This document shows positions 6,327-50,258 of a stretch of 64,000 nucleotides of DNA, piece by piece (within the stretch, counting starts at the first letter, position 1; every line of letters starts with the position of its first letter). Made by a program: the position numbers and the translations under genes. Origin of the DNA: Corallococcus macrosporus DSM 14697 (GTDB taxonomy: Bacteria > Myxococcota > Myxococcia > Myxococcales > Myxococcaceae); contig NZ_CP022203.1 in the NCBI RefSeq assembly GCF_002305895.1, positions 2,644,501 through 2,708,500 on the forward strand, in the 5' to 3' direction. The notes under the pieces are model-generated. The model saw only the letters and a program-made list of their open reading frames with translations, had not been told where the DNA came from and did not search any database.

Positions 6327-8786
6327 TCAAGGCAGCGGCCCGTCCACCAGGCGGAGCACGTCCGCCAGCACACCGGCCGCCGTCACCGCCGCGCCCGCGC
6401 CGTAGCCGCGAATCACCAGCGGTGTGGGGCTGTAGCGCTCCGAGGTGAAGCTGAGCGCGTTCTCTCCGCCCTTCACCGCCGCCAGCGGGTGCGCCAGGGG
6501 CACCGGCACGAGCCCGACGAAGCAGCCCTCCTCCGTGACGCTGCCCAGGTAGCGCAGCACCTTGCCCTCCACGCGGAGCGCCTCCACGCGGCGCTGGAAG
6601 GCGGCGTCCACCTGGGGGAGCCGGGCCAGGAAGTCCTCCAGCGGCCCGGTGGCGTCGAAGTCCGGCGGCAGCAGGGAGTCCAGCGTCACCTGCTCCAGCT
6701 CCAGGGTGCGCCCCAGCTCGCGCGCGAGGATGAGCACCTTACGCGCCACGTCCGTGCCGTGGAGGTCATCGCGCGGGTCCGGCTCCGTGAAGCGCTTCTC
6801 CATGGCGGTGCCCACCGCCTGGGACAGGGGGACGCCTTCCTCCGTCAGGCCCAGGATGAACGACAGCGAGCCGGAGAGGATGCCCTCCACGCGCAGCACC
6901 CGGTCCCCGGTGCGCAGCATGTTCTTCAGCGTGTCGATGACGGGCAGCGCCGCGCCCACGTTCGTCTCGTAGAGGAAGCGGCGCTGGTGGCGGGAGGCCG
7001 TATCGCGCAGCTTGCGGTAGTGGCTCCACGGGCCGGCGTTGGCCTTCTTGTTCGCGGTGACGACGTGGAGCCCGGCCTCCATCAGCGACGGGTAGGCCTG
7101 GGCGATGTCCTCGCTGCTGGTGCAGTCCACGAAGACGGGCCGGCCCGGGCGCTTGGCGCGGGCCCAGTCCCGGAAGGCGTCCAGGGGCGCGCCGTCACCG
7201 CTGGCCGACAGCCGCTGCTTCCAGTCCTCCAGGGGGAGGCCCTCGCTCGCCGCGACGAAGCGCTTGCTGTTGGCGATGACGCACACGCGCAGGTCCAGGC
7301 CGTGCGCGCGCAGCTTGGGGGCCTGTTGGTGGACCTGCTTGAGCAGCTCGCCGCCCACGCTGCCCACGCCGGCCAGCAGCAGCTCCACCACCTCCGTGGT
7401 GCCGAAGCAGCGCCCGTGCACGTGCGCCAGGGCGCGCGGGCCATCCGTCTCCGCGATGACGGCGGAGATGCTGCGCTCGCTGGAGCCCTGGGCGATGGCG
7501 GCGATGCTGCACCCCACGTCCGCCAGCGCGCTGAAGAAGGTGCCGGCCACGCCCACGCGGTGGCGCATGCCGTCGCCGACGATGCTGAGCACCGCGAGCC
7601 CGCGCTGCTGTTCGATGGTGTCCACCTTGCCCGCCGCGCGCTCCATCTCGAACGCCGCTTGGAGGGCCTGCACCGCGCGCTCCGCGTCCGCCTGCTGGAC
7701 GCAGAAGCTGATGGAGCACTCGCTGGAGCCCTGGGTGATGAGCACCACGGAGATGCTGGCGTGGGCCATGGCCTCGAAGACGCGGGCGGCGGTGCCGGGG
7801 ACGCCCTTGAGGCCCGCGCCGGCCAGGTTCACCAGCGCGATGCCGGGCAGGAAGGAGAGGCCCCGCACCGGGTGCTCGGGCGGCGCGGCGTCGTCGGTGA
7901 CGCGGGTGCCCGGGTGCTCGGGGCGGAAGCTGTTGCAGACGCGCACGGGGATGCCGCGCTCGCGCGCCGGCGCAATCGTCTTGGGGTGGAGCACCTTGGC
8001 GCCGAAGTACGCCAGCTCCATGGCCTCCTCGAAGCTCACCTCTGGCAGGGGGAAGGCCTCCGGCACCAGGCGCGGGTCCGCGCTGAAGATGCCGTCCACG
8101 TCCGTCCAGATTTCCAGCAGCTCCGCGTCCAGCGCCGCCGCCGCCAGCGCCGCCGAGTAGTCCGAGCCGCCCCGGCCCAGGCACATCGTCTTGCCCCGGG
8201 CGTCACCGCCGAAGAAGCCCGGCATCAGCATCAGGCCCGGGCCGCTGGCCTCGCGCAGCGGCGTGAAGCGCGCCCGGCTCTCCTCCTGGAGCGGCGTGGC
8301 CTGGAGCGGGTCCCCCGCGCAGAGGATGACGTCCCGCGGCTCCACCGCGTGCGGCGCCAGGCCGCGCGCGTGCATCAGCGCGCCCAGAATCAGGCACGAG
8401 GCGCGCTCGCCCAGGCCGGACAGGTGCGCGAGCACGGCGGGCGAGCACTCGCGCAGCAGCCCCACGCCCTGGAGCAGGCCCCGCAGCTCCGTGGCAAGCG
8501 TGGACAGGCCCTCCTCCAGGGAGCGCAGCCGGGCCTCCCCCAGCTCCGCCGCCAGCTCGCTGACGATGCCCCGGTGGATGTCCTCGAAGCGGCCGTGGAG
8601 CGACTCCACCGGCTGGCCCTCCTGCGCGGCGCGGGCCGCGTCCACCAGGAGGTTGGTGATGCCGGACACGGCCGAGGCCACCACCATCACCCGCGTCTCC
8701 CTGCGCGCCGCCGCGGCCAGGTCCGCCACGCCGCGCATCCGCTCGGCGTTGCCCACGCTCGTCCCGCCGAACTTCATCACCCTCAT
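6327..8786 (-). CDS. thrA: Bifunctional aspartokinase / homoserine dehydrogenase I
   Basis: ThrA phosphorylates aspartate and later reduces aspartate semialdehyde to homoserine, the committed steps toward threonine (and methionine). The 819-residue length is essentially that of enterobacterial ThrA. The aspartokinase signature Lys-Phe-Gly-Gly-Thr-Ser-Val-Gly opens the protein. Two ACT-type regulatory regions with the Gln-Gly-Ser-Ser-Glu motif lie in the middle (about 325-460). The homoserine dehydrogenase Rossmann motif (Gly-Val-Gly-Ser-Val-Gly-Gly) begins near 470. The start ATG 8786 has GGGGGAGGTG just upstream. Threonine feedback through the ACT domains is known for the family, and the sequence upstream adds transcriptional attenuation by a Thr-rich leader peptide. 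No thrB or thrC is adjacent. Confidence 0.95.
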
Positions 8787-8882
8787 GAGCGCACCTCCCC
8801 CGGGCGTGCGGCGGGGCGGGGCGGCTGCTTCGGCGAAGTCGTCTGCGGGGAGGGCTGCATGTCGGGGCTCCTACGGCATGTG

Positions 8883-8918
8883 AAAACAAAAAAGCCCCGC
8901 GCCGGAGAGCGCGGGGCC
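8883..8918 (-). terminator. Attenuator terminator of thrA
   Basis: On the minus strand the arms 8910-8917 and 8894-8901 form a perfect 8-bp GC stem with an eight-base loop. A U-rich tract follows (UUUUUUGUUUU, 8893-8883). It lies between the leader peptide stop (8945) and the thrA start (8786), so it would end transcription before thrA unless the antiterminator forms. Confidence 0.85.
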
Positions 8919-8959
8919 GAGCTGGAAACGAGATGTTCCCGAAGCTAGACCGCCCGCGC
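8909..8959 (-). promoter_or_regulatory. Antiterminator pairing in the thrA leader
   Basis: The end of the leader-peptide frame (8953-8959, transcript GCGCGGG) is perfectly complementary over 7 bases to the upstream arm of the terminator (8909-8915, transcript CCCGCGC). If a ribosome stalls on the Thr codons just upstream (8966-8995), this pairing can form and pre-empt the terminator. If the ribosome moves on to the stop codon it covers 8953-8959 and the terminator folds. This is the usual logic of amino-acid attenuators; here it is inferred from complementarity only. Confidence 0.7.
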
Positions 8960-9076
8960 CCGGCGGGTCGTCGTGGTCGTCGTCGTGGTGGTGGTCAGGG
9001 CGGTCGACAGGGCGCGCGTGCGGGCGGGGAACGCCGTTCCCTCGCGCTGCACCTGGTGGCCGTTGACGCCGTTCAT
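8945..9076 (-). CDS. thrL: Threonine-rich leader peptide of the thrA attenuator
   Basis: A 43-codon frame starts with ATG at 9076 and ends with TAG at 8945-8947. Ten consecutive Thr codons (8966-8995, a mix of ACC and ACG) stand 13 residues before the C-terminus of a peptide otherwise rich in Ala and Arg. A terminator follows 27 bases later and then thrA, which is the arrangement of enterobacterial thrL. An in-frame stop at 9110-9112 bounds it upstream and ATG 9076 is the only good start. No Shine-Dalgarno sequence precedes it; a TTGACT box 31 bases upstream suggests a nearly leaderless transcript. Unlike the E. coli peptide it has no Ile codons mixed in, so it should sense threonyl-tRNA alone. 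The gene name is by analogy. Confidence 0.8.
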   Translation of the reverse strand: MNGVNGHQVQREGTAFPARTRALSTALTTTTTTTTTTRRARAV

Positions 9077-9084
9077 GAAGGGAA

Positions 9085-9113
9085 GGCTGGCCGAACTCGA
9101 CGCGCCAAGTCAA
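9085..9113 (-). promoter_or_regulatory. Possible promoter of the thrL-thrA transcript
   Basis: TTGACT (9113-9108) matches a sigma-70 -35 box in five of six positions. At the standard 17-base spacing the -10 position reads CCAGCC, which is poor. Transcription would then begin within a few bases of the thrL ATG at 9076. Only the -35 box supports this. Confidence 0.3.
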
Positions 9114-9184: not shown

Positions 9185-10210
9185 TCAGCTCGCCAGGCGG
9201 ACGACCACCTGGGTGAGGCCATAGACGACCACCGCCGTCAGCGCCGCGGCCGGGATGGTGAACACCCAGGCCCAGATGATGCGGCCGGCGACGCCCCACT
9301 TCACCGCGCGCCAGCCCTTGGTGGCGCCCACGCCGACGATGGCGCCGGTGATGGTGTGCGTGGTGGACACGGGGATGCCGAGCTGGGCGAGCGCGATGAT
9401 GGTGACGCCGCCGCCCGTCTCCGCCGCGAAGCCGCCGATGGGCGCCAGCTTGGTGAGGCTGTGGCCCATGGTGCGCACGATGCGCCAGCCGCCGAAGAAG
9501 GTCCCCAGGGCGATGGCCGCGTGGCAGGAGATGATCATCCACCAGTCGATGTGGAACGGCCGGTCCTTCCAGATGGTGCCGAAGAGCACCACCGCGATGA
9601 TGCCCATCACCTTCTGCGCGTCATTGGTGCCGTGGCTGTAGGAGAAGATGGCGGAGGACACGAGCTGCAGCCGGCGGAACCACGAGTCCACCTTCAGTGG
9701 CGTCTGCCGGTGCACCACCCAGGTGCTCAGCACCATCAGGCTGATGCCCAGCGTCATGCCGATGAGGGGCGACAGCACGATGAAGGCGGCGATCTTCGCG
9801 ATGCCGGAGCCCACCAGGCCCGCGACGCCGAGCACCGGCAGCGTGGCGCCAATCATGCCGCCGGCCAGCGCGTGCGACGACGAGGAGGGCAGGCCCCACC
9901 ACCACGTCAGCAGGTTCCAGACGATGGCGCCCATGAGGGCGGAGAAGATGACGGCGAGCACCGCGCTGGGGCCCTGGGCCCGGAGCATCTCGAAGTTGAT
10001 GATGCCCTTGCCCATGGTGTTGGCCACGTGGACGCCCCCGCCAAAGGCCGCCACGAAGTTGAAGAAGGCGGCCCAGGCCACGGCCAGGTTGGGCGACAGC
10101 ACCCGGGTGGAGACCACGGTGGCGATGGAGTTCGCCGCGTCGTGGAATCCATTGATGAAGTCGAAGATGAGTGCGACCGCGACGATGAGGATGACGGCGG
10201 CGAGTAGCAT
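9185..10210 (-). CDS. PiT-family inorganic phosphate transporter
   Basis: A 341-residue polytopic inner-membrane protein of the PiT family, low-affinity phosphate symporters. The family signature is seen twice: near the N-terminus (Asp-Phe-Ile-Asn-Gly-Phe-His-Asp-Ala-Ala-Asn-Ser) and in the second half (Ser-His-Gly-Thr-Asn-Asp-Ala-Gln-Lys). About eight to ten hydrophobic segments are present, and the protein is shorter than E. coli PitA (499), as in many non-enteric bacteria. Its ATG directly follows the TAA of the PhoU-like gene with no spacer, so the two form one operon and translation is probably coupled. The partner presumably modulates transport. No Pho box could be recognised with confidence. 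Confidence 0.92.
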   Translation of the reverse strand: MLLAAVILIVAVALIFDFINGFHDAANSIATVVSTRVLSPNLAVAWAAFFNFVAAFGGGVHVANTMGKGIINFEMLRAQGPSAVLAVIFSALMGAIVWNLLTWWWGLPSSSSHALAGGMIGATLPVLGVAGLVGSGIAKIAAFIVLSPLIGMTLGISLMVLSTWVVHRQTPLKVDSWFRRLQLVSSAIFSYSHGTNDAQKVMGIIAVVLFGTIWKDRPFHIDWWMIISCHAAIALGTFFGGWRIVRTMGHSLTKLAPIGGFAAETGGGVTIIALAQLGIPVSTTHTITGAIVGVGATKGWRAVKWGVAGRIIWAWVFTIPAAALTAVVVYGLTQVVVRLAS

Positions 10211-49631: not shown

Positions 49632-50258
49632 ATGGCGACGAAGTCACGCAAGACGGCTGTTGCGAAGAAGTCATCCCGGCGTAGCGCCACGGCGAAGAAG
49701 GCCACGCCGAAGAAGGCGGCATCCAAGAAGGCCGGCGGCGCGAAGAAGCGCGCCGCGAAGAAGCGCGCCGCGAAGAAGACGACGGCGAAGAAGACGACGG
49801 CGAAGAAGCGCGCCGCGAAGAAGGCGACGCTGAAGAAGCCCTCCGCCAGGAAGGCCGCGACGAAGCCGCGCGCCGCGAGGAAGGCGACGGCGAAGAAGAC
49901 CACCGCGCGCAAGACGGCGACGCGGCGGACCTCCGCGGCTCGGCGTGAGCGGCCCGCGACGGGTGCTTTGTTGGTCGAGCAGGTGGAGACGACGTCCGCG
50001 GGGCTCCAGCCCCTGGCGCCGGCCCACGCGCCGGTGGACGAGTTCACCAGCACCGGCAACGAGGTGCTCGACATCTTCCAGCGCTACGACCGCGACCGGA
50101 CCGGCACCATCGACCGCGCCGAGTTCGCCCGCCTGCTGGAGGCGCTGGGGCAGAACATCTCCGACGAAGAGCTGGAAATCGCGGTCGACATCGTCGACAC
50201 GGACCGCACCGGGAAGATTTCCTGGAACGAGTTCAAGGCGTGGTGGAACAGCCGTTGA
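49632..50258 (+). CDS. Histone H1-like protein fused to an EF-hand pair
   Basis: A 208-residue cytoplasmic protein in two parts. Residues 1-105 are almost only Lys, Ala, Arg, Thr and Ser in repeats such as Ala-Ala-Lys-Lys and Thr-Thr-Ala-Lys-Lys, like the tail of histone H1 and bacterial H1-like proteins, which bind DNA. After a linker, residues 143-205 form two canonical EF hands. Loop 1 starts at Asp153, with acid or oxygen ligands at 155, 157 and 161 and Glu164. Loop 2 starts at Asp189, with 191, 193 and Glu200. DNA binding controlled by calcium is the obvious inference. ATG 49632 follows GGAGGGG. The hybrid kinase gene begins 87 bases downstream on the same strand. Confidence 0.85.
   Translation: MATKSRKTAVAKKSSRRSATAKKATPKKAASKKAGGAKKRAAKKRAAKKTTAKKTTAKKRAAKKATLKKPSARKAATKPRAARKATAKKTTARKTATRRTSAARRERPATGALLVEQVETTSAGLQPLAPAHAPVDEFTSTGNEVLDIFQRYDRDRTGTIDRAEFARLLEALGQNISDEELEIAVDIVDTDRTGKISWNEFKAWWNSR

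Follow-up and report, generated by a model that had tools for sequence, protein, structure and literature searches.

In the enterobacterial thr leader (thrL; Rfam family RF00506, Thr_leader), codons for product amino acids, a stop codon and competing antiterminator and terminator structures lie directly before thrA. In Sinorhizobium meliloti the trpL RNA begins directly with the leader ATG, and transcription attenuation there depends on the ribosome (PMC7298713). Leaderless short ORFs with clustered cysteine codons precede genes of the cysteine pathway in mycobacteria (PMC4633059), and this form of regulation has been described as translation attenuation (PMC13236596). According to a survey of attenuators, hardly any of the predictions in Acidobacteria came with an associated function (PMC2965389). 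Here we describe an arrangement upstream of thrA in the window (the whole 64-kb stretch of DNA that was analysed) which shares with the enterobacterial leader its codons for the product amino acid, its stop codon, its competing structures and its position directly before thrA. Judging from the sequence and from a simple model of ribosome states, it is very probably a ribosome-mediated transcription attenuator that couples transcription of thrA to the supply of charged tRNA-Thr.

The first-pass annotation of this DNA had equated the design with the enterobacterial thr attenuator, restricted to Thr. The same class does apply and Ile codons are indeed missing from the window leader, but the equation fails on two points, since the window has a probable leaderless start and lacks thrBC downstream of thrA. 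The enterobacterial and Myxococcus ThrA lineages adjoin in the ThrA tree. The RF00506 model left the Myxococcus and Holophagae leaders unmatched and matched those of Aeromonas and Shewanella weakly; the matches that an Rfam search returned for the window leader were all sub-threshold and terminator-like, and were discarded. No similar DNA was found in E. coli genomes. A leaderless start and ribosome-dependent attenuation, as known for S. meliloti trpL, are predicted for the window, although trpL responds to Trp, belongs to the Alphaproteobacteria and has a mapped start whereas that of the window is predicted. The mycobacterial leaderless short ORFs with polycysteine, which Canestrari et al. 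reportedly treated in 2020, resemble the window leader in clustering codons for one amino acid, which in these Actinobacteria is Cys, and probably also in lacking an untranslated leader. The mechanism is thus of a known class, while the lineage, the Thr-only code and the leaderless layout look to be unreported in the open-access literature searched; in that literature no Thr attenuation was found in myxobacteria or Acidobacteria.

The leader ORF, its predicted alternative RNA structures and thrA

The putatively regulated gene lies on the minus strand at 6327..8786 and encodes an 819-residue bifunctional aspartokinase I/homoserine dehydrogenase I. The first-pass annotation had named it thrA, and the identity is supported by the NCBIfam match (997 bits, where the cutoff is 726) and by the presence of the expected Pfam domains. 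The same genome encodes a second fused ThrA, 40% identical (G000:C1:1176695-1179148), the upstream region of which was read directly and contains neither a Thr leader nor a terminator. Upstream of thrA, a thrL-like leader peptide ORF of 43 codons (9076..8945, minus strand; translation MNGVNGHQVQREGTAFPARTRALSTALTTTTTTTTTTRRARAV) ends in UAG and has no Shine-Dalgarno sequence, and its frame and Thr codons are kept in all Myxococcus leaders read. Ten successive Thr codons (8995-8966, minus strand), all of them ACC or ACG, form the predicted sensing run, and similar runs occur in other Myxococcus leaders. Re-reading the ORF therefore places the 43-codon frame with ten consecutive Thr codons where it had been reported, and the accompanying judgement that the chance of such a run is very small agrees with the finding of just three runs of at least eight identical residues in the six frames of the 64-kb window, namely the Thr run, the Val run that lies antisense to it, and a single run of Arg. 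Twelve Arg codons in a row stand at 49771 in one plus-strand frame. The clustering of codons for the amino acid of the downstream pathway is that expected of ribosome-mediated attenuators.

An intrinsic terminator, recognised by folding, by a terminator scan and in the alignment, follows at 8918-8888 (minus strand). It consists of an 11-pair hairpin at 8918-8893 (GGCCCCGCGCU-CUCC-GGCGCGGGGCU, -23.2 kcal/mol by folding) and a U tract at 8893-8888, which agrees with the GC hairpin and U-tract noted earlier behind the leader. The hairpin begins after a gap of 26 nt from the leader UAG, and the scan ranked 8918-8893 best among three overlapping sites, with 0.3 expected from shuffled sequences. Arm B with the loop (8918-8901, minus strand) serves both as the 5′ arm of the terminator and as the 3′ arm of a predicted antiterminator, and these uses are mutually exclusive. 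The 5′ arm of the antiterminator, arm A (8964-8953, minus strand), lies within the end of the leader ORF and, according to the fold and the state model, would be under a ribosome at the stop codon. An inner hairpin of the form GGGAA...UUUCC (8940-8923, minus strand) sits between the stop codon and arm B; its pairing is kept with changed bases in relatives. When folded without arm C, 8964-8953 is predicted to pair with 8915-8909 and 8905-8901, enclosing the inner hairpin, at -37.0 kcal/mol. The antiterminator of the first-pass annotation was limited to GCGCGGG (8959-8953) as the exact complement of CCCGCGC (8915-8909); the complementarity is real, but 7 bp is too short and the predicted pairing is longer and includes the inner hairpin. 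In the window, the antiterminator is no stronger than arms so rich in GC would commonly give: of 1000 shuffles of the arms, 219 were as strong. Over 20 leaders, which are related and do not amount to 20 independent tests, the pairing of the arms gave a mean z of -2.3, and it is across species rather than from the window alone that the predicted pairing becomes convincing. The features that characterise the attenuator class, a terminator between leader ORF and gene and a mutually exclusive antiterminator with an arm that is covered at the stop codon, are thus present in the predicted structures.

A putative promoter precedes the leader at 9113..9084 (minus strand), with a -35 element TTGACT (9113-9108), an 18-nt spacer, a -10-like element CAGCCT (9089-9084) and a predicted +1 at about 9077. 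TTGACT and CAGC(C/G)T are conserved across Myxococcus. This putative promoter was not scored by a strict sigma-70 promoter scan of the window, so that the -10 element is proposed from conservation and spacing. The leader AUG falls at about +2, its place being the predicted +1 or 1-2 nt beyond. Among 49 leaders that contain TTGAC, nearly all have their start codon 35-38 nt from the first T of this motif, a distance which with a spacer of 17-18 nt corresponds to the expected +1 or to 1-3 nt beyond it; six automatic start calls at 29 nt are in-frame ATG or TTG codons in the -10 region, with another ATG at about 35 nt. In Corallococcus, TAGGAT is followed about 9 nt later by the leader start codon. 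In the window, and in several lineages, the mRNA that encodes the leader peptide is probably leaderless.

Between the terminator and thrA begins a second small ORF of 25 codons (8860..8783, minus strand), which has a Shine-Dalgarno sequence (AGGAG) and a UGA that overlaps the AUG of thrA. It is found in all 36 distinct Myxococcus and Corallococcus leader regions, with 21-28 codons, length changes that are all in frame and, in most of the 36, a purine-rich ribosome site. On these grounds it probably couples thrA translation. In some species the small ORF begins Thr-rich (MKTQTSTTTT).

Conservation of the unit in Myxococcus and Corallococcus

Loci were gathered by similarity to ThrA, after which a covariance model of the unit was run on 195 Myxococcota genomes. 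Genus g26 was taken as Corallococcus because of shared loci. The model found a single copy in each of the 27 genomes of Myxococcus, the genus of the window, and in each of 15 among the 16 of Corallococcus. Among the loci found through ThrA, the unit was seen in Myxococcus, Pyxidicoccus-named and Corallococcus genomes, standing before thrA in the copies read. Elsewhere among the 195 Myxococcota genomes the covariance model recovered no true copy and two false matches only, in G060 and G162, which proved to be plain terminator-like hairpins with no Thr leader. Other genera of Myxococcaceae have distant ThrA homologues, and the genome-wide covariance search found no unit in them. Within the Myxococcota genomes scanned, the switch is confined to Myxococcus and Corallococcus.

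The leaders of the two genera differ in their Thr codons. Those of Myxococcus have a dense run near the end, with 8-12 Thr in the densest 12 codons, and those of Corallococcus just 5-7 Thr codons, which are spaced. In one genome of the latter genus (G031; L086 and L141) the end of the leader frame is changed and the antiterminator arm weakened; this leader is perhaps a decaying attenuator. One record titled Comamonas sp. KCTC 72670 (BNCN01000014.1; L004) carries a 95% identical thrA and a Myxococcus-like leader, and seems to be misnamed.

That a threonine attenuator precedes thrA, and that its elements should be sought in relatives, had been put forward in the first-pass annotation; the Thr codons, the stop codon, the arm and the terminator are kept before thrA in Myxococcus and Corallococcus and also in Holophagae, which supports the proposal. 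The compensatory changes looked for in the stems were found in part. Three pairs have changes on both sides, of which two are in the inner hairpin, with CG/GC and GC/AU exchanges (helix 3), and none in the terminator. Pairs with double changes are not more frequent than in column shuffles but exceed those in slid versions. Compensatory changes are few overall because the cores of the stems are nearly invariant GC, and with so few changes we do not take covariation as proof of the stems.

Related leaders in Holophagae and the history of thrA

The first search had returned four Acidobacteriota MAGs with a Thr leader before thrA, and the covariance model matched 43 of 93 Holophagae genomes. The best of these matches, when read, had Thr-rich leaders before thrA, often with Ile, Met or Asn. 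Like the window, the Holophagae thrA leaders have a TTGAC-type promoter, a start codon at the expected +1, a Thr-rich end, a stop codon, the arm, the terminator and thrA, and GGCCGGTCTAGCT is common to a Myxococcus leader (L012) and a Holophagaceae leader (L017). They differ from the window in mixing Thr, Ile, Met and Asn codons, in a shorter spacer and, in some, in having a homoserine-kinase-like gene downstream; the Holophagaceae regions read are without the second small ORF, unlike those of Myxococcus and Corallococcus.

In a ThrA tree of 50 sequences, Myxococcus and Corallococcus fall inside a group with Holophagae (support 99/97), with gammaproteobacterial ThrA next to this group and the other Myxococcota ThrA proteins apart; their attachment to one particular subgroup of Holophagae has lower support (89/78). 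The tree suggests that Myxococcus thrA was probably acquired from the Holophagae ThrA lineage, and in this sense we infer the direction of the transfer. Analogous leaders stand in Holophagae before thrBC, ilvDB and lysR-ilvA genes. We give an even chance to a wider scenario in which a leaderless Thr attenuator and thrA moved as one portable unit between Holophagae and the ancestor of Myxococcus and Corallococcus, Holophagae use attenuators broadly for Thr and branched-chain genes, and the coupled small ORF was added in myxobacteria.

Several leaders of this kind were identified by eye. In two Holophagae loci (L183 and L191) the first 350 nt hold a Val/Ile-rich leader (LSVVVIIDHGAGAI) and a terminator before a LysR gene, followed in L183 by an ilvA-like threonine dehydratase that was recognised by eye and not by HMM. 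Three further loci (L185, L190 and L194) have Val/Ile/Leu-rich leaders before ilvD-ilvB-like operons, and in L195 (G268:C304) a Thr-rich leader (ISTITGITTTTTARVRRV) is followed by two genes, one homoserine-kinase-like and the other probably thrC. One Holophagaceae MAG also has a Thr-rich leader (LTTPTTTTAAIWFRVRAV) ahead of a gene for a LysR-type regulator (L136; G195:C170). In Thermoflexus, of the Chloroflexota, Thr/Met-rich frames (for example SMTTTMTGMMTTGLPSSRGDV) lie about 100 nt before an aspartokinase gene (L047, L049, L050 and L051) and resemble a Thr/Met leader.

Proposed mechanism, alternatives and meaning

The ORF, the Thr run, the two possible structures, their conservation and the link to thrA can be read directly in the DNA, and from them we infer a leaderless start, ribosome stalling and a regulatory outcome as follows. 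Transcription would start at the leader start codon, or 1-3 nt before it, and give a leaderless or nearly leaderless mRNA that is translated. With ample Thr-tRNA the ribosome would pass the Thr codons, reach the UAG and cover arm A, so that arm B would pair with arm C to form the terminator and the RNA would end near 8888. With scarce Thr-tRNA it would stall in the Thr run and leave the arm at 8964-8953 free to pair with arm B ahead of the synthesis of arm C, in which case no terminator would form and thrA would be transcribed. In the simple state model, as long as arm C has not been transcribed, a ribosome at any of Thr codons 1-9 gives an antiterminator pairing of 0.97-0.99, and one at the tenth Thr codon 0.66; with the ribosome at the stop codon arm A is covered and the terminator has a probability of 1.0, the zero for the antiterminator being a matter of geometry. 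In an equilibrium fold of the whole window leader the terminator wins for stalls at Thr 1-5, and the model accordingly needs co-transcriptional kinetics, that is, the order of transcription.

Upstream, a Pit phosphate-transporter gene that shares the strand of thrA ends at 9185, and the hairpin might be its terminator, with the Thr run an unrelated ACN triplet repeat, as its use of ACC and ACG only within very GC-rich DNA might suggest. We regard this as highly improbable. The gene upstream of the unit varies between species and the unit still stands before thrA where that gene is a different one, which indicates that the unit follows thrA and that the terminator belongs to thrA; promoter-like elements lie between the Pit gene and the leader, and conservation of the stop codon and of the arm just ahead of the hairpin reaches as far as Holophagae. 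Nor do the Thr codons behave as a triplet repeat: in codon columns that hold Thr, changes at position 2 are about three times rarer than at position 3 (546 against 1840), the third position provides most of the variation, and ACT occurs among the Thr codons of relatives.

The leader might instead act mainly on translation, as has been reported for the mycobacterial cysteine leaders, with a stalled ribosome changing access to the start of thrA or of the second ORF. The presence after the leader of a small ORF that overlaps the thrA start makes translational effects possible, but as the main mode of action we consider them very unlikely. What has been conserved, about 100 nt upstream of thrA, is an intrinsic terminator that ends in a U tract and has an arm in common with the antiterminator, and neither structure includes the Shine-Dalgarno site of thrA or that of the second ORF. 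It is also barely credible that a working attenuator responds to slow translation in general and not to Thr in particular. A ribosome halted for any reason a little ahead of the final codons could free the arm, and Arg and Ala codons do follow the Thr run; against this, the leaders of a Thr-pathway gene retain their Thr codons in different species and phyla, and in Holophagae the leaders of ilvDB-like and lysR-ilvA genes have Val and Ile instead.

Transcription attenuation in response to Thr-tRNA at this locus would extend translation-coupled amino-acid sensing to Myxococcota and Holophagae. It would also point to leaderless starts as a recurring design of attenuators, and to genes that are transferred along with their attenuators. 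Development in Myxococcus is triggered by amino-acid starvation, and a direct sensor of Thr-tRNA on thrA would therefore be relevant there.
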